Assembly: GCA_017983635.1 (NCBI GenBank)
Contig: JAGOBA010000001.1
Span: 434,001-498,000 of the forward strand
Origin: Alphaproteobacteria bacterium
Lineage (GTDB): Bacteria > Pseudomonadota > Alphaproteobacteria > Micropepsales > Micropepsaceae
Length of the DNA stretch: 64,000 nucleotides
Direction: 5' to 3'
A model generated the notes under the pieces. The model had not been told where the DNA came from and ran no database searches. It was given only the letters and a program-made list of their open reading frames with translations. Position numbers and translations under genes: made by a program. Shown piece by piece: positions 27,357 through 61,079 of the stretch (position 1 is the stretch's first letter; each line of letters opens with the position of its first letter).

Positions 27357-29534
<2,178 letters not shown>

Positions 29535-29656: not shown

Positions 29657-30889
29657 CTACAGAAAGTGCAGAAGGCGGACGGTGACGAACGAGTCGTCGC
29701 GCACTTGCTCAAGCACGGTGTCCCCGTCGCCGGCACGCAGGACCAGGGCGCCCTGCACTTCCAGCCGGAAGGCATCACCGAGCCGGGTTGAGGCTTCGAT
29801 CTTGGCGTAAACCGAGCCCTTGTCGATGTCGACGAGAGCGCCGATCAGGCCGGAGCTGTCGCTCGTGTCGTTGAACGCGAACCTGGTGCCGAAGAAGAAG
29901 TCCTTGTCGTAGATCGTCGGCGGTGCGGAAGGCGGGCGGTCGTCCCAGGCGAACTCCAGCACCAGGCCGATGTCGCAATCGGTTCCGGCCACTTGCGATA
30001 GGGTATGCTCGACGCCGGCCACGACGGCCGTGAAGCGGCGCGCGCCGGGACCTTGGTGCCCGTCACGGGTGATCGCTTCGAGCTTCAGCAGAGTGGCGTC
30101 CAAGGTTGCTTGAACGTCGAGGCCCACTTGATCGATCACGTCATAGACGGGGACGAGGGTCGCGCCGGCGAGCTCAAAGCGCGGCTCGCGGCTGGTGCCG
30201 TTGAAGTAGGTCAGGCCGATGTCGAAGTCGTCGATCCGGGCCTTCAAGCGGCCCGCCACGTCAACGCGATGAGTGCGGGCGCTCGATTCGTATTCGGCGT
30301 TCGCGGTGTCGACCGGCAGCGTCATGCGCAACCGGCCCGCGGTGCCTGGGAAAGTGCGCGGGCGGAAGAGCGGCAGCACGATGACGGTGGCTTCGATGTC
30401 GTCATACTGGCCTCGAAACATCGCCATCGGCTGGCCCAATTTTTCGTCGCCTTCGGGCTCTTCGACCAGGTCCGACTGATTGACGATGTCGACGATGTGC
30501 CTCGATTCGGTGACGCCCCAGTAGACTTTGCTGACGCCTAGCCGAATGACGACGGGATCGGCATAGACGCTCACCGCTGCTTCACGCATGTCGGCGTGGG
30601 TGCGTTTGCGGTCGGTGTCGTCGTAGCGCAGGAACGGCGCCACATCGATGACGACGCTCTTGTCGTTCGAGGTCCAGGAGGCGTTGGCCGCGGCGGTCAA
30701 CGAGCCTTGCAGCAGAGCGCGATCTTGTCCGGCGTAGGAAGGCCGCATGGCAAACGCGCGAACTTCGGCGCCGATCGTTCCGCGAAGGACGAGCGTGCCG
30801 TCATCCGCCGGCGCCGCCTGCGCGGCCGTCGCACTCACAGCCGCGAAGAGGACCGGGAGTAGATTGAATGTACCCCGGTCGCCACGCAT
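29657..30889 (-). CDS. Outer-membrane beta-barrel protein candidate
   Basis: A 410-residue exported protein with a signal peptide (LLPVLFAAVSATAAQA). The mature chain shows many alternating amphipathic strands and ends VRDDSFVTVRLLHFL, a C-terminus suitable for outer-membrane assembly. Phrases such as SRHIVDIVNQSD and KLGQPMAMFRGQYDDIEATV recall outer-membrane proteins coded beside RND exporters and LolA-like proteins. It may form the outer-membrane step of the exporter encoded upstream. Start 15 bases after the LolA-like gene. Confidence 0.75.
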   Translation of the reverse strand: MRGDRGTFNLLPVLFAAVSATAAQAAPADDGTLVLRGTIGAEVRAFAMRPSYAGQDRALLQGSLTAAANASWTSNDKSVVIDVAPFLRYDDTDRKRTHADMREAAVSVYADPVVIRLGVSKVYWGVTESRHIVDIVNQSDLVEEPEGDEKLGQPMAMFRGQYDDIEATVIVLPLFRPRTFPGTAGRLRMTLPVDTANAEYESSARTHRVDVAGRLKARIDDFDIGLTYFNGTSREPRFELAGATLVPVYDVIDQVGLDVQATLDATLLKLEAITRDGHQGPGARRFTAVVAGVEHTLSQVAGTDCDIGLVLEFAWDDRPPSAPPTIYDKDFFFGTRFAFNDTSDSSGLIGALVDIDKGSVYAKIEASTRLGDAFRLEVQGALVLRAGDGDTVLEQVRDDSFVTVRLLHFL

Positions 30890-30904: not shown

Positions 30905-31729
30905 CTACCTGAGACGCTCCATCGACTGTTCAGTAAAGTCGACTTCGGTTAATCCCGTGCTAAACTTGAGATCGGTGACGCTCAATTTCGTCGAGCGGCC
31001 GCTCTGATGATTGATCATCAGGAGTTCGTAAGGGCGCCAGAAGCGCTCGTTGTGCTTGCGGTAGTTCGCGAGCGTTAACGTCTTCAATAGGCGATCTTCC
31101 CGATTGTAAAACTCGATCTTGCGGAACAGGAACTCGGTGGCGTCGATCCAGGCGATCTGACGCTTGTAACCGGATGCTTCGTAATGCGGCACACGCTCGA
31201 CGACGAAACACTGCAGCGCGGCGTGGGGCGCCGGGCACGGTTCGTCTCTGAGCCAGCGGTAGTCGTATTTGCCGAGCTCTTGGGCGGTCAGATCCTCGTA
31301 GGCGAACTCGCTGCCGAGGAATGGGCCCGACTTGTTCGAAGAAGCGATGCGTTTCACGCGGGCGATGCTCGGGATGTAGATCCACTGATCGTCCGCGGTC
31401 AGGATCTGCGTGTGGGTGAGGAGGACCGTGCCTTGCACGTCCTTCGGCATCTCGAAGAATATGAGGGACTTGTCGCCGACTTGGTCGCTGGCACCTTCCA
31501 GCACGTTCATGCGCAGCGTGCGCTCGTTGGCATCGCCGCTATCGCTCATCAGGCGCATCGTCATGCGCGATTGCGTGTCGCCGAACCCGGCATCGCGGCG
31601 GATCGACTCGGCTGTAATTTCGCGACCCTTGGCTTTCGAGTCCGCGGAGAACTGCGGCGGGGCGGCGAGGCTTGAGCCCGCGCTCGACAGGGCGATCAAG
31701 ACTGACAACGTAACGACGCGAAGATTCAT
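30905..31729 (-). CDS. LolA-like outer-membrane lipoprotein-sorting protein
   Basis: A 274-residue periplasmic protein with signal peptide (LSVLIALSSAGSSLA). It has the half-barrel pattern of the LolA-like family often coded with MMPL/RND exporters: KSLIFFEMPKDVQGTVLLTH, DDQWIYIPSIARVKRIASSN, GPFLGSEFAYEDL, and YKRQIAWIDATEFLFRKIEF. Such proteins are thought to carry hydrophobic cargo across the periplasm. It lies 15 bases after the RND-CqsA fusion gene. Confidence 0.88.
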   Translation of the reverse strand: MNLRVVTLSVLIALSSAGSSLAAPPQFSADSKAKGREITAESIRRDAGFGDTQSRMTMRLMSDSGDANERTLRMNVLEGASDQVGDKSLIFFEMPKDVQGTVLLTHTQILTADDQWIYIPSIARVKRIASSNKSGPFLGSEFAYEDLTAQELGKYDYRWLRDEPCPAPHAALQCFVVERVPHYEASGYKRQIAWIDATEFLFRKIEFYNREDRLLKTLTLANYRKHNERFWRPYELLMINHQSGRSTKLSVTDLKFSTGLTEVDFTEQSMERLR

Positions 31730-31744
31730 GGCGAAAACTCCAAC

Positions 31745-34700
31745 TCAGGAACCGGCGGCAGGGAAAAGCGTTTCGGGAAGGAACGGCTCGGACCAGGTTG
31801 AGCCGGCCGGGCGGTGCTCGGGCGCGGTCGCATCGGCGCGCAGCAGACCTTTCGGCCATGGCGAGATCGCCCTTTCTTGCGCAATGGCGCGGCATGCGGC
31901 GATGACCCGATCGAGATCGCTGTTGTTGAGACGCGCATTGACCGAGAGCCGGACGATGCCGTGCTTTTTCGGCGTCGCCGGTGCGCAGAACACGGCACCG
32001 AAAACCTCATGCTCCTCCAGCGCGTTGCGCAGAGCGCGCGTCTGTTCGTCGGTGCCCGAATGTAGGGCCACGATTTGCGATGCGCTTTGATCGACCGCGA
32101 AGCCAAGCTTCAGCAGGCCTTGGCGCAGATAGAAGGTGTTCTGCCACAGCTTTTGGCGGCGCCAATCTTCCGTCTGGATGACTTCCAACGTCGCCGACAG
32201 ACCCGCGACTTCGTTCTGCAGCACGGCAGAGGAGAAGATTGCGGGGCGCGCTTCGTAAGGGAAATAGGCCATCACGCGCGCCGGACCTGCCACCATGCCG
32301 GCTCGCGTTGCGAAGGCTTTCGAGAGACTGAAGGTACGGTACTGCACCTTCTCGGTCAGACCGAGCGCGTGCACGAGACCTTCGCCACGCCGGCCGTAGA
32401 CGCCGATCGCGTGCGATTCATCGGCGGCGAGAATGCAGCCGGTGCGCTCACTCAAAGCGGCGATCTCAGCAAGCGGACAGATCGTTCCGTAGGCGGAGTA
32501 GACCGTGTCGACGAGGATCAAGCCCGGGCCATAGCGCTTGATCATGCGCTCCAGGTGTTCCGGATTGTTGTGGCGGAAGGCATGTGCGGGGGCTCCCGCC
32601 ATGCGCGCGCCTTCCCAAAGTGAGGCGTGTGCGAACTGGTCCAGATAGACCGGCGTGCGATGATCGACCAGCGCCTGAACGAGGCCGGTGTTCGCGCTCC
32701 AACCGGACTGGCAGAGCACGGCGGCCTCCGTGTTCAGATAGGACGCCATCTGCGTCTCGAAGCGGCGTTGCAGACTGGTCTCGTTCAAGAAGACCGCCGA
32801 CATGAATACGTCTTCGGACTGGCTTTCCAGAAGCTCGACTTGCGCCTTCACGATCTTGGGATGACCGCCGAGGCCGAGATAGTCGTTGCTCCACAACTGC
32901 ACCGACGAAGGGCCCGGGACGCGGCCGGCTATCAGGTGGCCGTCGCGCATGCGCTCGAAGTAGGCGTCGACGCGGGTGGTGAGCGCGGGATGTTCGCTGA
33001 CGCCGGTGGAGCGGCGTTCGCGCTGCCAGGAGAACAGACCAAGGTTGCGATCGCACACGAGCAAGAGCGGTGCGAGGATAAAGAAGTCGGCGAGCATGGC
33101 GAAGCAGAAGGTGATGACGGTCAAGAGCCCCAAGGTGCTGTTGACGCCAAAGCTCGAGAAGGCAAGCACGGCGAAGCCGAAGCACATCACCGTCATCGTG
33201 AAGAGCATCGCCTTGCCGGTTGCCGTGAACGCGTATTCGACGGCTTGATCGGGCAACATGCCCAAGATGCGCCGGGCACGCGCGTATTTTGACACATAGT
33301 GGATCGTGTCGTCGACGACGACGCCGAATGTCATCGCGGCCACAATCGAGACCGCGACGTTCATCTCCGCAACGAGGTGGCCCCAGAGGCCAAGCGCCAT
33401 GACGGCGGGCACGAAGTCACCCACCATCGAGACCAAGCTGAGTTGCAGACTGCGCAAACCCAGCACCAAGATTAGGGACACGATGAGGACGGCCATGGCG
33501 GTGCCACCGATCATCATCTCGATGTTGCGCGACGAGAGGTGCGCGAACATCAGCGAGAGACCTGTGCCCTTCGCCGCCATGCCTTTGCCGCCGCTCGTTT
33601 CGAGCCAGTGTTCGAAACGCTCGGCCAGCGGCAGAAGCTCATCGGAGGGAAGGTTCTTGCCGTTCATGCCGACAACCACCGTCACCCGCGATGCGGATCG
33701 GGATACGGTGATCCGGTCGGTCAAGCTCAGGCCCTGCGGTAGCGACATTTCGTACAGCAAGAGGTATTGCGCCGTTTGGCTGCGATCGTCGGGGATACGG
33801 TCGAAGGCGCGGTCGTCGCCGTGGACACTGCGATTCACGCGTTTGACGATGTCGCTAATCGCGATGACGTTCAGGACTTCCGGCTGTGCGCGTAGCCAGG
33901 TGCTGAACGCATCGAGCTTGGCCAGATATTCGGGGCTCTCGACACCGCCGGCGGTCTTTGCCGGAACGGAAAACTCCATAACATCGAAGCCCGTCAACTT
34001 CTTTAGGACGGTGTCGGTGTCGCGCCGGAATTGGAAACTTTGGTCGAAATACTCTATCCAATTTTCCGATTGGCGCATGTGGAAGATGCCGGCGGCCAGT
34101 ACGACGACCAAGGCCGTCATGGTGCTCAGAATGACGCCGGGCTTGGCATTGACCCTGCCGGCGAGCCGCTTCAGCGCTTCGTGCGTGTAGCTCTTTTTTG
34201 GGTCGATCGGGACCGAGAAAATTTGCAGCAGTGCCGGCGTTAGGCTGAAGGTCAGCAGGAAGGCGGCGGCGACGCCGATGGCGGAGATGTTGCCCAGGTC
34301 GTGGAACGGCGGGGCGTCCGACGAGTTCATGCTCAGGAAGCCGATCGCCGTCGTCAGGCTGGTCAGGAAGATCGCGAAAGCGTTGGATTCGACGGCCGAG
34401 AGCGTCGATACCCGATTGGAGGCGCCGAGGCGGCAGCCGTCGACGTACTCGGAGATGATGTGGACGCTGTAGGCGAGCGCCACGGTCAGCACGATGAACG
34501 GCGCGGGTGCGGAACCGGCGCTCATGACGATTCCGGCGGTGCTGGCGGCACCCATCGCGAAAAGCATCGAGAGGCCCGCGACGGTGAGCGCGATGCCGGT
34601 GGCGACCCAGGATCTGAGCAGCAGATAGAGGACGAGGCCCATCACGACGAGCATGATCGGCACGAGGAACAACATGTCGCGCGCCTGCGCCTCGCCGAAC

Positions 34701-35377
34701 GCCTGCATCACCATGACGTTGCCGGTGAAGTAAAGCCGGACGTCGGGATGTTTCGCCAGGAAGCGGGCTTGCAAGGCCGCAAGGTAGTTCGAGATTTCGC
34801 GCACGCTGGCCGGATCGTCGCGCGGGAACTGGAAGTTCGTGCGGGCGCCGGCGACCTTGCCGTCGGCGGAAATCAGAAGGCCTTTCAGCAACGGCTCGTT
34901 GAGGGCGATCGAGCGGACGTTGGCGATCTCGCCCGGCGTGAAGGCGAAGCCGCGCGGAACCAGATCGTTGATGACGATGTCGTCGTCTTTGCCGGTCGAG
35001 TGTTGAAAGTTGGAAAGCGAGTCCACGCGGATCGCGAAGGGCGCTTTCCAAAGTTCGTTCGTGATTTCGAGGACCGCCGCGAGGCCGGCTGGCGTGAAGA
35101 CGCCGCCGCTTTTGGGTTCGATGGCGACCAATACGTCGTTGTTCTGCGAGTACTCGCGCTCCAGCGAATTCAGGAGCAGCAGCTCCGGATTGTCGGGACC
35201 GAAGAACACACGGTTGTCCATCGTGGAGCGCAGGTCCACCGCGGCCCAGCCGGCGAGCAGCGCCAGGAACGCGTAGAAGCCCACCACCGACCAACGGAAG
35301 CGATAGATCAGCGCGCAGTAGTCGTAGAGCAGCGTGCTGTGCGGTTCCTTGGCGGTCGCGGGTTTCCAGGTTGCCAT
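31745..35377 (-). CDS. RND/MMPL exporter fused to a CqsA-like autoinducer synthase
   Basis: A 1210-residue protein in one uninterrupted frame. Residues 1 to about 790 form an RND superfamily exporter: first helix YRFRWSVVGFYAFLALLAGW, a periplasmic loop, helix bundle (RDMLFLVPIMLVVMGLVLYLL), second loop, second bundle with FGVVVDDTIHYVSKYARARR. From about 791 a complete PLP-dependent alpha-oxoamine synthase of CqsA type follows: LWSNDYLGLGGHP, VLCQSGWSANTGLVQALV, DQFAHASLWEGARMAGAPAH, PLP Lys1020 in TFSLSKAFATRAG. The domain is close to the separate CqsA gene upstream, so it arose by tandem duplication and fusion. The cytoplasmic C-terminus of the exporter would place the enzyme at the inner membrane. 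Proposed: product made at the export site. Confidence 0.88.
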   Translation of the reverse strand: MATWKPATAKEPHSTLLYDYCALIYRFRWSVVGFYAFLALLAGWAAVDLRSTMDNRVFFGPDNPELLLLNSLEREYSQNNDVLVAIEPKSGGVFTPAGLAAVLEITNELWKAPFAIRVDSLSNFQHSTGKDDDIVINDLVPRGFAFTPGEIANVRSIALNEPLLKGLLISADGKVAGARTNFQFPRDDPASVREISNYLAALQARFLAKHPDVRLYFTGNVMVMQAFGEAQARDMLFLVPIMLVVMGLVLYLLLRSWVATGIALTVAGLSMLFAMGAASTAGIVMSAGSAPAPFIVLTVALAYSVHIISEYVDGCRLGASNRVSTLSAVESNAFAIFLTSLTTAIGFLSMNSSDAPPFHDLGNISAIGVAAAFLLTFSLTPALLQIFSVPIDPKKSYTHEALKRLAGRVNAKPGVILSTMTALVVVLAAGIFHMRQSENWIEYFDQSFQFRRDTDTVLKKLTGFDVMEFSVPAKTAGGVESPEYLAKLDAFSTWLRAQPEVLNVIAISDIVKRVNRSVHGDDRAFDRIPDDRSQTAQYLLLYEMSLPQGLSLTDRITVSRSASRVTVVVGMNGKNLPSDELLPLAERFEHWLETSGGKGMAAKGTGLSLMFAHLSSRNIEMMIGGTAMAVLIVSLILVLGLRSLQLSLVSMVGDFVPAVMALGLWGHLVAEMNVAVSIVAAMTFGVVVDDTIHYVSKYARARRILGMLPDQAVEYAFTATGKAMLFTMTVMCFGFAVLAFSSFGVNSTLGLLTVITFCFAMLADFFILAPLLLVCDRNLGLFSWQRERRSTGVSEHPALTTRVDAYFERMRDGHLIAGRVPGPSSVQLWSNDYLGLGGHPKIVKAQVELLESQSEDVFMSAVFLNETSLQRRFETQMASYLNTEAAVLCQSGWSANTGLVQALVDHRTPVYLDQFAHASLWEGARMAGAPAHAFRHNNPEHLERMIKRYGPGLILVDTVYSAYGTICPLAEIAALSERTGCILAADESHAIGVYGRRGEGLVHALGLTEKVQYRTFSLSKAFATRAGMVAGPARVMAYFPYEARPAIFSSAVLQNEVAGLSATLEVIQTEDWRRQKLWQNTFYLRQGLLKLGFAVDQSASQIVALHSGTDEQTRALRNALEEHEVFGAVFCAPATPKKHGIVRLSVNARLNNSDLDRVIAACRAIAQERAISPWPKGLLRADATAPEHRPAGSTWSEPFLPETLFPAAGS

Positions 35378-35379
35378 TG

Positions 35380-36702
35380 TTATTTTTCCCGGTTCAGCCA
35401 GCGATCGGCGGCGCGGCGGAGGTCATGGCCGACGCTGCGCAGCGAGGCCACGGCGGTGTCGATGTTTTGCTCGCGCAGAGGGCTTGCGCCGGCCAGCAGG
35501 CCCCGCGGCCAGGGCGCGATGGCGCGGTCGTCGGCGATGGATTTGCAGGCGGCGATGACGCGGTCCAAGTCGCCGTCGCGCAGGCGCGCGTTGACCGAGA
35601 GGCGCACGATGCCGTGGTGCTTTGGCGTTGCGGGGGCGCAGAACACGGCGCCGAAGATGTCGTGCTCTTCGAGTGCGTTGCGCAGGGCGCGGGTTTGTTC
35701 GTCGGTGCCGGCGTGCAGCGCGATGATCTGCGAGGTGCTTTGGTCGACGGCGAAGCCGAGGCGCTGCAGGCTTTGGCGCAGATAGCGCGTGTTGTACCAA
35801 AGTTGCTGACGGCGCCAGTCTTCTTCCTGGATGACTTTCAGCGCCGCGGCGAGGCCGGCGACTTCGTGTTGAAGGACGGCCGAGGAGAAGATCGCGGGGC
35901 GGGCTTCGTAGGGGAAGTAGGCCATCACGCGGGTTGGACCCGCGACCATGCCGGCGCGGGTCGCGAAGGCCTTCGAGAGGCTGAAGGTGCGGTACTGCAC
36001 CTTTTCGGTCAGGCCCAAGGTGTGCACCAGGCCTTCGCCGTGCGGGCCGTAGACGCCGATGGCGTGCGATTCATCGACGGCGAGGATGCAGCCGTTGCGT
36101 TCGCTGATGCCGGCGATGTCGGCGAGCGGGCAGATCGTGCCGTAGGCCGAATAGACGGCGTCGACGAGGATCAAACCGGGGCCGTTGCGCTTGATCAAGC
36201 GTTCCAGATGTTCCGGCTTGTTGTGGCGGAAGGCGTGCGCCGGCGCGCCCGCCATACGGGCACCTTCCCAAAGCGAGGCGTGGGCGAACTGATCCAAATA
36301 GACGGGCGTGCGATGGTCGACCAAGGCTTGCACGAGGCCGGTGTTCGCGCTCCAGCCGGATTGGCAGAGCACGGCGGCCTGCGCGCCGAGATACGACGCC
36401 ATCTGCGTTTCGAAGCGGCGTTGCAGGCTGGTCTCGTTCAAGAAGACCGCCGACATGAAGACGCCTTCGGATTGGTGTTCGAGAAGATCGACCTGCGCCT
36501 TCACGATGTCGGGGTGACCGCCCAGGCCCAGATAGTCGTTGCTCCAGAGCTGCACCGACGAGGCGCCAGGCACGCGGCCGGCGATCAGATGGCCGTCGCG
36601 CATGCGGTCGAAATAGGCATCGACGCGCGCGCGGAGTGCGGGATTTTCGCCGCGGAGCGGCGCGGTCTCGCACGTCCCTGTCAGCGGCATTGCGTTGCTC
36701 AT
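35380..36702 (-). CDS. cqsA: CqsA-like alpha-hydroxyketone autoinducer synthase
   Basis: A 440-residue PLP enzyme of the alpha-oxoamine synthase family. In Vibrio, CqsA condenses decanoyl-CoA with an amino acid-derived substrate to make the CAI-1 precursor. CqsA-like phrases: LWSNDYLGLGGHPDIV, FMSAVFLNETSLQRRFE, VLCQSGWSANTGLVQA, DQFAHASLWEGARMAGAPAH, RHNKPEHLERLIKRNGPGL, PLP Lys244 in TFSLSKAFATRAG. These fit CqsA/LqsA better than serine palmitoyltransferase or 8-amino-7-oxononanoate synthase. Its start overlaps the response-regulator stop by 4 bases, and the exporter fusion starts 2 bases after its stop. Confidence 0.88.
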   Translation of the reverse strand: MSNAMPLTGTCETAPLRGENPALRARVDAYFDRMRDGHLIAGRVPGASSVQLWSNDYLGLGGHPDIVKAQVDLLEHQSEGVFMSAVFLNETSLQRRFETQMASYLGAQAAVLCQSGWSANTGLVQALVDHRTPVYLDQFAHASLWEGARMAGAPAHAFRHNKPEHLERLIKRNGPGLILVDAVYSAYGTICPLADIAGISERNGCILAVDESHAIGVYGPHGEGLVHTLGLTEKVQYRTFSLSKAFATRAGMVAGPTRVMAYFPYEARPAIFSSAVLQHEVAGLAAALKVIQEEDWRRQQLWYNTRYLRQSLQRLGFAVDQSTSQIIALHAGTDEQTRALRNALEEHDIFGAVFCAPATPKHHGIVRLSVNARLRDGDLDRVIAACKSIADDRAIAPWPRGLLAGASPLREQNIDTAVASLRSVGHDLRRAADRWLNREK

Positions 36703-37094
36703 CGCGGCACCGCGCCGTCGCCGCGCGCGGCCAGCGCCGCGTCGAGTGCGGTGCCAAGTTGCGAGGGCTTGAACGGCTTGCGCAGCGTTTGGTCGGCGCC
36801 GAATTTGCTGGCGAGCTGCAGCACGTCGATCTGCGGCGCGCGCGGCAGGCCACCGGAGACGGCGACGATCGCGACGCTCGGCCGTTCGCGGCGCAGGTGA
36901 CGGATCGTCTCGAGCCCCTCTTGATTGGGCATCACGAGATCGCAGATCACCGCGTCGAAGGGCTGAGCGGTGAAGGCCTTTGTTCCGGCCAAGCCGTCGA
37001 GCGCGAACGCGACGTCGTGGCCGCGCTCCTCAAGGGCATGGACCATCACATCGACGAAGACTTCGTCGTCATCAATCACAAGAATGCGGGCCAT
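36699..37094 (-). CDS. Single-domain response regulator
   Basis: A 131-residue CheY-like receiver without output domain. Acidic pocket VIDDDE (residues 6-11), phospho-acceptor Asp52 in VICDLVMPN, and the conserved Lys in RKPFKPSQL. It is the first gene of the CqsA-CqsS cluster and is translationally coupled to cqsA. It probably takes phosphate from the Hpt domain of the hybrid kinase, similar to LqsR/LqsT-type wiring, though no output domain is attached. Confidence 0.9.
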   Translation of the reverse strand: MARILVIDDDEVFVDVMVHALEERGHDVAFALDGLAGTKAFTAQPFDAVICDLVMPNQEGLETIRHLRRERPSVAIVAVSGGLPRAPQIDVLQLASKFGADQTLRKPFKPSQLGTALDAALAARGDGAVPR

Positions 37095-44125: not shown

Positions 44126-45583
44126 ATGACACAGCAGCTGGGCGCGCAGGATGCGCAGTTTCTCTATCTCCAGACCGGGGAAAATCTGACCCATGTGATG
44201 GGCATCTATGTCTACGATCCGTCGACGGCGCCCGGGGGCAGGGTGCGGTTCAAGGATATCGTGCGCCATATCAGTGCGCGTTCTCATACCTCACCGGTGT
44301 TCCGGCGGCGGCTGCTGCGCCTGCCGCTCGACATCGATCATCCCTATTGGGTGAAGGATCCGCATTTCGAGATCGAGACGCATATCACCCATGTCGCCCT
44401 GCCGGAGCCCGGCGATTGGCGGCAGTTCTGCATTCAGGTCGCGCGCCACTTCTCGCGGCCGATGGATATGAACCGGCCGCTCTGGGACATCTATGTGGTG
44501 GAGGGGCTCGACCGCGTCGAGGGTGTGGCGCCCGGGAGCTACGCGTTGCTGCACCGGATCCATCACGCCGCGATCGACGGCGTCTCCGGCGCGCATGCCT
44601 TCGTGGCGCTGAACGATCGCGACGCGCAGGGCACGCCGGCGATCACGCCACGATCGTTCGACGGCGAGATCGGGACGACGCCAAGTGCGGTTGAGATCGC
44701 CGCGCGTGCCATCTTCGCCAACGTTACGTCGCCCGCACGGTTGATGAATGCGGCGCTTCGTCTGTCGCCGGCGCTCTTGAGTGCGGCCGGCAAGAGCCTT
44801 GCAGAGTTCGGGCAAGGGCACGCGCCCGCCGGTGTTCCGCAGACGCGCTTCAACGCGCCGGTCTCACCGCACAAGATGTTCGACGCCGTCACGTTGGAGC
44901 TGAAAGAGCTCAGCGCGATCCGCCCGCTGGTCGAGGGCGCAACGATCAACGACGTCGTGATCGCGATCTGCAGCGGCGCGCTCCGGCGCTATCTCTTGAA
45001 GCACAAGGAACTGCCGAAGGACACGCTGGTCGCGGTGGCGCCGATCAACGCCCGCAAGCGCGCCGGCGAGGCCGATATTCCAGGCAACAACATTTCGGCG
45101 ATGAGCGTGCGGCTGGCGACCGATATCGCCGATCCGCTCGAGCGGCTGCAGGCCATTCGCGACTTCACGGCCGACGCGAAAGAAGCGAAAGCCGGCATCA
45201 GCGCACGCGTGATGACCGATCTGTCGAAGCATATTCCGGGCGCCACCATGGCCGGGGTTGCGCGGCTTCTCACCAGCGAACGCTTCGCGCCGCGTCAGGC
45301 GAACCTGTTCATTTCGAACGTGCCGGGCCCGCAGGTGCCGCTCTACATGAACGGCGCGCGTCTCACGCATCAGTTCGGCATGGCGCCGCTCGCCAACAAT
45401 ATGGGGCTCTTCATCGCGGCGCTGAGCTACAACGGGACGATCAGCTTCTCGATCACCTCCGACCGGCACATCTTGCCCGACATCGGCTTCTTCCGCGAAA
45501 GCATCGTGGCCGCGTTCAAGGAACTGCGCCACCTGAAGCCGGCCGCGAAGGGGAAAAAGACGGCGCGCCGCGACGGAACGTAA
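44126..45583 (+). CDS. Wax ester synthase/diacylglycerol acyltransferase (WS/DGAT)
   Basis: A 485-residue acyltransferase that makes wax esters or triacylglycerol from acyl-CoA. The catalytic HHxxxDG motif is in LHRIHHAAIDGVSGAHAFV (about residues 143-161). The N-terminal MTQQLGAQDAQFLYLQTGEN and C-terminal NLFISNVPGPQVPLYMNGAR parts are typical (WES_acyltransf plus DUF1298-like). ATG at 44126. It implies neutral-lipid storage. Standing alone between two repeat copies, it may have moved as a unit. Confidence 0.95.
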   Translation: MTQQLGAQDAQFLYLQTGENLTHVMGIYVYDPSTAPGGRVRFKDIVRHISARSHTSPVFRRRLLRLPLDIDHPYWVKDPHFEIETHITHVALPEPGDWRQFCIQVARHFSRPMDMNRPLWDIYVVEGLDRVEGVAPGSYALLHRIHHAAIDGVSGAHAFVALNDRDAQGTPAITPRSFDGEIGTTPSAVEIAARAIFANVTSPARLMNAALRLSPALLSAAGKSLAEFGQGHAPAGVPQTRFNAPVSPHKMFDAVTLELKELSAIRPLVEGATINDVVIAICSGALRRYLLKHKELPKDTLVAVAPINARKRAGEADIPGNNISAMSVRLATDIADPLERLQAIRDFTADAKEAKAGISARVMTDLSKHIPGATMAGVARLLTSERFAPRQANLFISNVPGPQVPLYMNGARLTHQFGMAPLANNMGLFIAALSYNGTISFSITSDRHILPDIGFFRESIVAAFKELRHLKPAAKGKKTARRDGT

Positions 45584-57113: not shown

Positions 57114-60100
57114 CTAATCAGCGGCGGTTCGCCTTAGACCGAGCCGCTCAAAGATCGCGTCGGCCTTTGCGGCATGCGCCTGCGCCGCGTCGATGTCGCC
57201 TTTTCGGTGCGCGACGGTTGCGAGCGCCGTGTGGCAGTCGGCGGTGAGGGGATCGAGTTTGAGGTGCTCGCTCATTTGCAGCGCGGCTTCCAGGTCTTCG
57301 ATGCCGCCCGGCAAGCGGCAGACGTCTTCGCTGGTACGGATTAGGCCACGCAGGTAGCGGGTCTGGGCGATGTGGATCGGTTCGTTGTTTTCGGTGGCGA
57401 TCGCGACGGCTTGCTCGATCGTGTCGATCGCGGCGGTGCAGTCGCCGCAGGCGAGCTCGGCTTCGGCGAGGCCGCGGAAGACTTGCACCGCGGCGAAGCG
57501 TCCGGCTCGAAAGTAGAGCTTGTTGTAGACGGAGTAGCGGGCAATCGCGCGCGCTTGCTCGGGCTTGCCGGTGTGCACGAGGGCAGAGGCGAGCAGGCCG
57601 GTGACCGCCGGCTCCAGCAGATGGATCTGGTTCTTCAGACAGGTTTCGTGGGCGCGCTCGAGGTACTTCACGGCGCCTTCGGCATCGCCTGTGGCCAGCG
57701 CAACGCGGCCGTGGGCGTTGGAGATCAAGGCCCGCGAGTACGGCTGGTCGCTGTCGCCAAGGATGCGCTCGCCGCGATCGACGTAGACTTTGGCGTCGGC
57801 GAAGCGGCCGCGGTCGACGAGGAATACCGCCAGGAACGCGCAGCAGCGGACCGAGGGCAGGAACATGCGGCCCATGGTGGAGCGTTCGTCTTCGGGCGAA
57901 TAGGCGGCGAGCAAATCCGTGTACGTTGCAATCGCCTCGTCCAGGTGGCCAGTCGCTTGTTCGATGTGTGCCTTCATCGACTGCGCGATATCGCGGAGCG
58001 CGAAGACGCCGGTTTCCTGCGCGATCTTCAGCGCGATGTCGGCGTGGACGCGGGCGGCGTCGTGGCGCGACCAGATCCAATTGAAGACGGCGTAGTGCGA
58101 GCGGGCGATGCCTTCGCGGAAGCGCTCGCCGCGCGCTTCGCAAAGTTCGATCGCAAGCTGCAACGCTCGTTCGTATTCCTGCGCGTCGCCCGATTGCTGG
58201 AGCGCATCGAGGCTGGTCATCACGAGGTCCAGCAGTGCGCCCCTGCCCGCCTCCGGCACCGACGGTTTCAGCCGCATCGCCCAATCGTAGAGCGCGCGGA
58301 TCGTCTTTTGCGACGAGGTGCGCACGCCGAGTTGGCAGGCGGTGACGAGCTGGGCCAGCGCTTTCTCGATCTGGCCGGAACGCTCCGCATGATAGGCGAG
58401 GCGTTCGAGCGTCTCGGCGGAGGCGTTCGCTTGCGCCTCAAAAGCGCGGGCGGCACGGCCGTGGATCTCGGAGGCTTCGGCCTTTAGGAGCGTTAGACGC
58501 GCGCCGCCGCGGAAGAGATCGTGGCGGAAGCGGATCTTGACCGGGTTCGAGGCGTCGATGAGATGTTGGCGCTCAAGTTCGCCTAAGACGGCGTCGAGTT
58601 TGTCTTCGGCGATGCCGCTCGTGGCGGCCAGAATGCTGCGGTCGATTTCGTCGCCGAGGACGCTTGCGCCTTGCACGACGCGGCGCGCGGGTTGGCTGAG
58701 CGCCGCCATACGGGACTGCACGAGGCTTGCGATGCCAAGCGGGGTGGCGTCGTCGGCTTGCGCTTCGTGGCCCGGCATCCGCAGAAGCTCTGCGAGGAAG
58801 AACGGGTTGCCGGCGGCGCGCTGCACGACGCGCTCGACGTGGCCGAGATCGCGTGCGGTTCCGGACGGCCAGAGAAAGCGGCAGAGCTCCTTTGCCTCGC
58901 CCGCGCTCAAGGCGCTGAGCTCTATCACTTCTGTCGCTGCGCGCGCGGCGTTGTCGCGCGCGACAGCGCGGGCGGTGAGCAGGAGCCAGAGGCGTGCCCG
59001 GCTGGTGAGCCCGTAGAGAACGCTGAGGAAATCGGTCGTTTCCGGGTCGAGGTGATGGACGTCTTCGACGAGCACCAAGAGCGGTTGGCGTTGCGCCGCG
59101 CGCTCAACCAGGTCGGCGACCGCGGCCAGCATCTTTTCGCGGCGCTGGGCCGCGGCGAGCGCGCTCCACTCGCGGTCTTCGACGGTGGCGCCCGCGACTT
59201 CGAGGAGGCCGGCTTGCAGGTGTTGCGGCACGCCTTGGACGCGCGCGACGGCACGCAACTCCGGCGCCGCGGCCGTCGGGCCACAGCCTAGGAGGCCGCG
59301 CACGAACGATTTCAACGACGCGAAGGGCGTGTGGCGCAGTACGGAGATGCCAGCGATCTCCTCCACGCGCAGGCCGAGCGCGCGAACGGTGCGGGCGACT
59401 TCGTGCGCGAGGCGCGTCTTGCCGATGCCGGCTTCGCCGACGATCGCAATTGAGGCGCCGGCCGTCGCGCCGCCGACGTCGATGGTCTTCAAAATGCGCT
59501 GGAGTGCCGCCTCGCGGCCGACCAGCGGGGCGGCGCCGTCATGGTCGAGTTGACTTGACAGGTTGCGATCGAAGGCGATGTGGGTCAGTTCGTGGAGTCG
59601 GAGCGCGCGGTTTGGCGCGACCGCAAACTCGCCGCGCGCGCTGGCCACCACCATGGGACCGGCCAGCGCCAACGTCTCACCGGTCAGCATCGCGCCGTTG
59701 CGGGAGGCGAGTTCTTCGACCTTGGCCGCGAAGTTCACGTCCGGGCCGACGGCGTCGTAGTCGGCACCGCGGTCGTTCTTCATGGTGCGGATAAGCGCGC
59801 GGCCCGAGTGGACGCCGACGCGCACGGCGCGGAAGTGATCGTCCGCGGTCGCGCCGGCGGGTAGCGAACGGAAATCCTCGCAGATCGCCTGGGCGGCGCA
59901 GCAGGCGCGTAACGCGTGATCTTCGTAGGCGATGGGCGCGCCGAAGATCGCCATCACGCCGTCGCCTTGTACGCGCGCGACAGTGCCGCCGTACTGGCGC
60001 ACCCGGTGGCGCATGCGAGAGACGGCGCTGTCGAGCAGTTCCTGCGCCTCTTCGATGTCCAGATCGGCGATGTGAGTCGTGGAGGACACCACGTCGGCGA

Positions 60101-60218
60101 ACAGGATCGTGATCAGCGAGGCGGTCGCGATGTCGGGCGCGTCGAAGCGCGACGCCGCGCGCGGCCGATCATCGGCATCGGCGCCCGGCCGTCCCGGCGG
60201 CAGCGGTTCTCCCGTCAC
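57114..60218 (-). CDS. Class III adenylate/guanylate cyclase with AAA ATPase and TPR region
   Basis: A 1034-residue cytoplasmic signalling protein. Residues about 35-220 form a class III cyclase (TILFADVVSSTTHIADLDIE, GTVARVQGDGVMAIFGAPIA). An ATPase follows with Walker A IVGEAGIGKTRLAHEVA and Walker B LLVLVEDVHHLDPETTDFLS. The C-terminal 450 residues are helical TPR-like repeats. Start GTG 60218 has a GAGGGAAC ribosome site; the frame is open for another 287 codons, but that stretch is antisense to the neighbouring methyltransferase. The trigger and product cannot be told. Confidence 0.88.
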   Translation of the reverse strand: MTGEPLPPGRPGADADDRPRAASRFDAPDIATASLITILFADVVSSTTHIADLDIEEAQELLDSAVSRMRHRVRQYGGTVARVQGDGVMAIFGAPIAYEDHALRACCAAQAICEDFRSLPAGATADDHFRAVRVGVHSGRALIRTMKNDRGADYDAVGPDVNFAAKVEELASRNGAMLTGETLALAGPMVVASARGEFAVAPNRALRLHELTHIAFDRNLSSQLDHDGAAPLVGREAALQRILKTIDVGGATAGASIAIVGEAGIGKTRLAHEVARTVRALGLRVEEIAGISVLRHTPFASLKSFVRGLLGCGPTAAAPELRAVARVQGVPQHLQAGLLEVAGATVEDREWSALAAAQRREKMLAAVADLVERAAQRQPLLVLVEDVHHLDPETTDFLSVLYGLTSRARLWLLLTARAVARDNAARAATEVIELSALSAGEAKELCRFLWPSGTARDLGHVERVVQRAAGNPFFLAELLRMPGHEAQADDATPLGIASLVQSRMAALSQPARRVVQGASVLGDEIDRSILAATSGIAEDKLDAVLGELERQHLIDASNPVKIRFRHDLFRGGARLTLLKAEASEIHGRAARAFEAQANASAETLERLAYHAERSGQIEKALAQLVTACQLGVRTSSQKTIRALYDWAMRLKPSVPEAGRGALLDLVMTSLDALQQSGDAQEYERALQLAIELCEARGERFREGIARSHYAVFNWIWSRHDAARVHADIALKIAQETGVFALRDIAQSMKAHIEQATGHLDEAIATYTDLLAAYSPEDERSTMGRMFLPSVRCCAFLAVFLVDRGRFADAKVYVDRGERILGDSDQPYSRALISNAHGRVALATGDAEGAVKYLERAHETCLKNQIHLLEPAVTGLLASALVHTGKPEQARAIARYSVYNKLYFRAGRFAAVQVFRGLAEAELACGDCTAAIDTIEQAVAIATENNEPIHIAQTRYLRGLIRTSEDVCRLPGGIEDLEAALQMSEHLKLDPLTADCHTALATVAHRKGDIDAAQAHAAKADAIFERLGLRRTAAD

Positions 60219-60350
60219 GTTCCCTCGGCGTGTTCGTGGTTGGGCTGAGTTTAGGGCCTCGTGGGCTGGAGCGGAACAGCCGTTTGTCCCCGGCCCTTGC
60301 TCAAAACTTGCGCCTTCGGGCACATTCGGCCCCGGGCTGCAGGGACCAAG

Positions 60351-61052
60351 ATGACCAGTCAACGCAATGCTGGCGTGTTGTGGATGCGAGCCGACCCGCG
60401 GGTCGGAGCCACCCTCGATCGGCTGCACCGCGAGTCGAAGCGCGACAAGCTGGTGATGCTGAAGGCGTTTCCGACGGGGCTTGCGGCACTGCTCAGCGGC
60501 CGGTCGTGGTTCGAGGCCGTGACGCCCGCGTTGAAAGATGCGCATCTCAAAGTCGGGTATGAGGCGGGCGAACTCATGTACAACACCGCGCGCGCGATCG
60601 ATGCGCGGCGGATTGTGGAGTTCGGCACCTCGTTCGGGTTCTCGACGATCTACCTGGCTGCCGCCGTGCGCGACAATGGCGGCGGTGCCGTGATCACCGC
60701 CGAGCTTGAGCCGAACAAGGCAGAGGCCGCGCGGCGGAATTTCGTCGAGGCAGGGCTGGAGCGGTTCGTCGAGATCCGCGTGGGCGATGCGATGACGACG
60801 CTTCGCGATGTCGAAGCCCCGATCGATATGGTGCTGCTTGACGGGTGGAAGGAAGCTTACATTCCGCTGCTCAAGATGCTGACGCCGAAGCTCCGGCGTG
60901 GGTCGGTGGTGTTTGCCGACAATGTGAAGATCTTCAAGAACTCGCTCAGGCCGTACGTCGAGTACGTGCAGGACCGGCGGAACGGGTTCGTCACCACGAC
61001 GCTGAACGCCGGGTCGGGGTTTGAGTATTCGGTGTACTTGCCGGAAAGATGA
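60351..61052 (+). CDS. O-methyltransferase-like SAM enzyme
   Basis: A 233-residue class I methyltransferase. RIVEFGTSFGFSTIYLAAAV is motif I; VITAELEPNKAEAARRNFVE binds the SAM ribose; IDMVLLDGWKEAYIPLLKML is the catecholate-type motif. Start ATG 60351 (MTSQRNAG). Divergent from the cyclase gene with about 130 bases between. Confidence 0.85.
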   Translation: MTSQRNAGVLWMRADPRVGATLDRLHRESKRDKLVMLKAFPTGLAALLSGRSWFEAVTPALKDAHLKVGYEAGELMYNTARAIDARRIVEFGTSFGFSTIYLAAAVRDNGGGAVITAELEPNKAEAARRNFVEAGLERFVEIRVGDAMTTLRDVEAPIDMVLLDGWKEAYIPLLKMLTPKLRRGSVVFADNVKIFKNSLRPYVEYVQDRRNGFVTTTLNAGSGFEYSVYLPER

Positions 61053-61079
61053 ATTGGGGATCGCCACCCGACAAAACAT

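Follow-up and report, generated by a model that had tools for sequence, protein, structure and literature searches.

The window analysed here is a stretch of 64,000 nucleotides (nt) from an alphaproteobacterium of the family Micropepsaceae (positions 434,001 to 498,000 of contig JAGOBA010000001.1, assembly GCA_017983635.1). It carries a gene that joins an RND/MMPL exporter to a CqsA-type autoinducer synthase (31745..35377). This gene and its neighbours all lie on the (-) strand. As the initial annotation had claimed, the fusion is a single frame of 1210 residues without interruption, in which Pfam recognises MMPL and Aminotran_1_2. Residues 1-780 (33038..35377) form an HAE3-type RND/MMPL transporter part with 12 transmembrane (TM) helices, residues 795-1180 (31838..32995) form the CqsA domain, and a linker of about residues 781-794 (32996..33037) connects the two. 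The fusion is end-to-end and each domain is complete: unfused relatives of the pump stop where the linker to CqsA starts. The exporter part had been extended to about residue 790; it is complete and we place its end at ~780. Similarly, the interval 31745-37094 had been assigned to the fusion as a whole, but the fusion ends at 35377, and 35380-36702 and 36699-37094 are separate genes.

At the outset, a sequencing error had been considered for the junction (about residues 780-795, near window position 33000). It is ruled out, since eight other assemblies contain the same open fusion. With the window's, nine independent assemblies thus carry it intact, and the architecture that was to be sought elsewhere was indeed found. 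The AlphaFold2 model of the whole protein (pLDDT 71.8, pTM 0.52) displays 12 TM helices, two periplasmic domains and a C-terminal domain, with a low-confidence linker at residues 784-796. In Foldseek searches, its pump part matches MmpL4 (TM-score about 0.76, normalised to the target) and its C-terminal domain matches Vibrio cholerae CqsA (3hqt, TM-score 0.92), in agreement with the composition proposed at first.

The run of genes starts with a receiver-only response regulator of 131 aa (36699..37094; Pfam Response_reg, 75 bits), whose gene overlaps by 4 nt that of a stand-alone CqsA-type synthase of 440 aa (35380..36702), a paralogue of the fused domain. The fusion gene starts 2 nt past the stop of the latter. 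It is followed, with gaps of 15, 15 and 122 nt, by genes encoding a LolA-like periplasmic carrier of 274 aa (30905..31729), an outer-membrane beta-barrel of 410 aa (29657..30889) and a hybrid histidine kinase of 725 aa (27357..29534). The carrier matches PF17131 LolA_like with 186.5 bits. The barrel has no Pfam family and starts with a predicted helix, possibly a signal peptide; the best Foldseek matches of its AlphaFold2 model (pLDDT 73, pTM 0.68) are outer-membrane porins and AlgE. The presence of these two genes behind the fusion, already pointed out in the initial annotation, is thus borne out, but the stand-alone CqsA, the receiver-only regulator and the CqsS-type sensor domain of the downstream kinase had escaped it. 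A promoter scan found no sigma-70-like site, which carries no weight either way.

Identity and history of the two synthase copies

Both synthase copies belong to the CqsA family. The fused domain matches NF005526, the NCBIfam model for alpha-hydroxyketone (AHK) autoinducer synthases, with 505.7 bits over residues 808-1174 and the stand-alone enzyme matches it with 511.7 bits, both above the cut-off of 428 bits; the two are 87% identical over 385 aa. The closest solved structure by sequence is V. cholerae CqsA (E=3e-95), followed by a serine palmitoyltransferase (SPT; E=2e-45). Alignment with 2wk8/3hqt places K1020 (codon 32318..32320) on K236, the lysine of V. cholerae CqsA that binds pyridoxal phosphate (PLP), and this lysine is invariant in the 19 rows aligned. 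The complete CqsA-like synthase with its PLP lysine that had been announced is therefore present. In a tree of 85 domains, the fused and stand-alone copies fall inside a CqsA clade of 59 rows (100/100), with 26 BioF/Kbl/SPT/ALAS-type rows on the opposite side. An SPT or BioF identity, which had been named as the other outcome of such a phylogeny, is ruled out by this tree and by the curated family model. Furthermore, the fused and partner copies, 18 in total, group together, at 93/72 in this large tree and at 96/95 in a smaller tree.

Columns were taken as specific to CqsA when 36 reference CqsAs conserve them and other alpha-oxoamine synthase (AOS) enzymes rarely have them. The fused copies keep them almost throughout: S860, Y911, G950, G952, S1017, R1025, R1117, G1127, V1129 and T1135, along with K1020, are found in 9/9, the exception being Q901, which is replaced in the fusions of Marinicaulis. 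The catalytic residues, including K1020, D986, H989 and H917, are kept in all fused copies. In the window, both copies retain K1020 and every CqsA-specific column, the AOS-invariant residues are also kept in the stand-alone one, and both look like standard enzymes. The stand-alone partners of a second lineage (L050-L055) keep the lysine but have alterations at otherwise invariant residues (S919, S961 and T1135 in some, fusion numbering). By these residues, it is the fused copy of that lineage that resembles the standard enzyme, while its stand-alone counterpart looks like an altered partner. CqsA is a homodimer. Its usual single-domain soluble form is found in the stand-alone copy but not in the fused one, which we consider a variant of CqsA/LqsA because it is attached to a 12-TM pump; the single-domain form is not required for the reaction.

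The two halves of the fusion have different histories. When compared with 13 unfused RNDs, the RND parts of the fusions fall into a single clade (100/100), and one fusion event is therefore likely. In contrast, the enzyme domains resemble their local partner copies, and a single clade of all fused enzyme domains is rejected by the approximately unbiased test (p 5.6e-45; p 7.7e-5 without the window's copy). Between the fused and stand-alone copies of the window, differences at fourfold sites climb along the domain, from 0.18 to 0.54; beyond the synthase domain, the ends are similar to the fused orthologues. Gene conversion, or homogenisation, between both copies within lineages appears to be the simplest account of these patterns.

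Other unusual CqsA proteins were encountered. A Cellvibrionaceae metagenome-assembled genome (MAG) encodes another fusion of about 1003 aa (L072:2274-5306), with an N-terminal CqsA ahead of an NB-ARC-like ATPase and TPR repeats. In a Deltaproteobacteria MAG, CqsA lies at the C-terminal end of a 723-aa frame counted from stop to stop (L069:7011-9182), behind about 320 residues without Pfam match. Moreover, the CqsA tree contains a long-branched clade of CqsA-like enzymes from Nocardia species (L073-L076).

Pump, envelope partners, sensor kinase and distribution

The pump part has the features of HAE3/MMPL transporters: two TM bundles, two periplasmic loops, MMPL homology (128 bits in Pfam) and an acidic motif in TM10, of which the pair D689-D690 is invariant. 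Its score against the HAE3 model TIGR00921 is 144.8 bits, below the cut-off of 351.9. In TM4, all nine fusions carry a tyrosine (Y303), whereas in most unfused relatives this position is Asp or His. RND genes of this subfamily occur in 43 of 289 genomes of the class, two of which have the fused form. Among 12 loci with unfused relatives (L134-L145), a LolA-like gene lies beside the pump at nine and a barrel gene at eight; one of these trios, paralogous to that of the fusion, belongs to the window's own genome (L141). The three proteins are about 36-48% identical to those of the fusion locus and the trios lack the CqsA domain. Since the trio recurs without CqsA in many Alphaproteobacteria, RND, LolA-like protein and barrel appear to constitute a recurring three-part envelope exporter to which CqsA was added. 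On a Sulfitobacter plasmid (L097), a more distant MMPL pump and a LolA-like gene stand directly behind a type I polyketide synthase, which hints at a lipid-like cargo for this more distant relative.

The fusion was sought in one genome per GTDB species with two peptide patterns, a scan that is not exhaustive. Besides the window, it was found in two assemblies of the same genus (L048 from G004 and L049 from G007), in Rhodospirillaceae (L050-L052), in an unplaced proteobacterium (L053) and in Marinicaulis (L054, L055). Fused loci of G778 and G779, from one genus, are probably repeats of L052 and L050, as their frame lengths are equal, and were left out of the count. Within the class the fusion is rare, since only two of 385 sampled genomes have it (the window's and G314). 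A stand-alone CqsA gene directly precedes the fusion at 9/9 loci, a LolA-like gene adjoins it at eight and a barrel gene at six, the window being counted. Both same-genus relatives display the same order (stand-alone CqsA, fusion, LolA-like, barrel, kinase). Outside the genus the order is, where the genes are present, barrel, LolA-like, second kinase, stand-alone CqsA, fusion. In plasmids no fusion was found, the best matches being unfused MMPL pumps or stand-alone CqsA. Likewise, no RND match was found within the flanks of the canonical unfused CqsA loci L056-L076; in those of the class (for instance L056, L057 and L061), kinases surround CqsA and the pump is absent.

The kinase associates a CqsS-type transmembrane sensor domain (residues about 31-200, 28935..29444) with HisKA, HATPase, REC and Hpt domains. 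Its N-terminal 200 residues are 33% identical over 169 aa (E=8e-26) to CqsS of V. campbellii, which is encoded next to cqsA. This homology of the six-TM sensor domain and the ligand-site residues both identify a CqsS-type kinase: among the counterparts of the Vibrio ligand-site residues (PMC3376566), W104, F160 and F162 are kept and S107, F166 and C170 are replaced by Thr, Ala and Ser, respectively. CqsS-type kinases are also encoded beside the fusion in L053-L055. In V. cholerae, a small residue at the C170 position goes with tolerance of longer tails. Because the window kinase has Ser at this position, its residues weakly predict a signal with a tail of ten or more carbons. In G004, the kinase (L048:14989-16907) consists of two overlapping frames, owing to a frameshift or an assembly error. 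In the two relatives from the same genus, no homologue of the receiver-only regulator turned up next to the locus; one of these loci is truncated by the contig end.

Two further genes of the window lie outside this run. One (44126-45583, (+)), about 7 kb from the module, encodes a wax ester synthase/diacylglycerol acyltransferase (WS/DGAT). The other (57114-61079, (-)) encodes a 1321-aa protein similar to TOMM kinase/cyclase fusions, with a score well below the family cut-off.

A candidate route for synthesis, export and sensing of an alpha-hydroxyketone

The locus is probably, although we say so with some reserve, a module for the synthesis, export and sensing of a CAI-1/LAI-1-like AHK, with a CqsA-type synthase built into the exporter. 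A domain placed C-terminal to the 12 TM helices of an RND pump lies on the cytosolic side. The fused CqsA domain would accordingly hang from TM12 and face the cytosol, the site of acyl-CoA and S-adenosylmethionine (SAM). There it would condense an acyl-CoA and either SAM or a small amino acid into a CAI-1/LAI-1-like aminoketone. This hydrophobic product would pass into the inner membrane next to the pump, the RND part would pull it out and the LolA-like protein would ferry it over the periplasm to the beta-barrel, which would let it through, or insert it, at the outer membrane. The accumulated signal would then be detected by the CqsS-type hybrid kinase, which would relay phosphate via its own REC and Hpt domains and possibly onward to the receiver-only regulator encoded by the first gene of the run. 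The stand-alone CqsA is probably a partner subunit or provides a second synthase activity. A more demanding version, which we hold tentatively and would rate a little short of an even chance, is a covalently coupled machine in which the fusion and a second CqsA subunit feed an AHK via the LolA-like carrier to the outer-membrane barrel.

The initial annotation had already seen a synthesis-and-export machine in this locus, and this view gains support from the recurrence of the RND/LolA-like/barrel unit without CqsA and from the CqsS-type receptor. As for its proposal of channelled secretion, we infer it, together with export of the CqsA product itself, from these arrangements. Several observations weigh against a dedicated export route. 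AHKs of Vibrio and Legionella exit in vesicles, without known dedicated pump and with other routes not excluded (PMC10692735), and a pump is therefore not required for AHK chemistry. The relative placement of the domains is not fixed by the model of the whole fusion, the scores of which are moderate only. Since a tyrosine replaces the Asp or His of most unfused relatives in TM4, proton coupling of the fused pumps may differ. Finally, L051/G314 gave no match to the LolA-like protein or the barrel next to the fusion, and L054 and L055 gave none to the barrel.

Two other readings are unlikely. According to one, both synthases make a sphingoid-like aminoketone lipid that RND, LolA-like protein and barrel place in the outer membrane, signalling being secondary or absent. 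CqsA and SPT are members of one enzyme superfamily, LolA-like proteins are carriers of lipids or lipoproteins and the sole characterised HAE3 lipid movers carry hopanoids (HpnN, cited in PMC6394551). However, the tree groups the fused domain with CqsA rather than with BioF/ALAS/SPT-type rows, the domain has the CqsA-specific residues, and the locus also encodes a CqsS-type receptor. The other reading, to which we give equally little credit, is that the fusion merely anchors the synthase at the membrane or sets stoichiometry, the pump moving an unrelated lipid or hydrophobic compound while the AHK exits by diffusion or in vesicles. Vesicular release in other bacteria fits this, as do the unfused trios without any CqsA, the existence of which implies that the ancestral cargo was something else; yet the fused pumps constitute a separate clade marked by a change of its own in TM4, and the exporter partners remain linked to synthase and receptor across lineages. 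It is very improbable that the fused domain has lost catalysis or serves as a regulatory version of the stand-alone enzyme, for instance as an acyl-CoA sensor controlling the pump: gene pairs often diverge into an active and a regulatory member and the stand-alone copy is always present, but the pattern is the opposite, the residues being intact in 9/9 fused copies and altered in stand-alone copies of the second lineage.

To return to a dedicated AHK module, its parts are of known kinds. Our literature search, which covered AHK synthases with RND/MMPL pumps and enzyme-MMPL fusions and left most subscription journals outside its coverage, found no description of the fusion, of its constant partner or of a dedicated exporter, consistent with the novelty claimed at the start. 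If true, the covalently coupled machine would be the first dedicated AHK export route and, as far as the literature searched shows, the first synthase-exporter fusion in quorum sensing. In several lineages the fusion has stayed together with its LolA-like and barrel partners and with a CqsS-type receptor. This pattern suggests a dedicated route, the existence of which can be put directly to the test.

Comparison with known systems

Among known signalling systems, the locus is closest to a variant of CqsA/CqsS of Vibrio, and by our rating should be seen as such. It shares with CqsA/CqsS and with LqsA/LqsS of Legionella the enzyme family, the PLP lysine, the CqsA-specific residues, a six-TM CqsS-type sensor kinase in the locus and a receiver regulator nearby. 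However, the known synthases are single-domain cytosolic enzymes without dedicated exporter, whereas that of the window is fused to an RND pump; the window locus also has a second synthase and a kinase with its own Hpt domain.

On the export side, AmeABCD of Castellaniella defragrans is the closest characterised HAE3 system. It likewise combines an HAE3-type RND with a LolA-superfamily periplasmic protein and an outer-membrane protein and acts on apolar compounds, but it has four components, no enzyme domain and monoterpenes as cargo (PMC6394551). The coupling of an MMPL-type pump to the enzyme making its cargo is known from MmpL lipid exporters: MmpL7 physically binds PpsE, a synthase of its own lipid cargo (PMC1238737). 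There the binding is non-covalent, the enzyme is a polyketide synthase and the envelope is mycobacterial (PMC1238737). The RND-CqsA fusion would be a rare covalent example of the coupling between synthesis and export that has been proposed for MmpL7 and PpsE.

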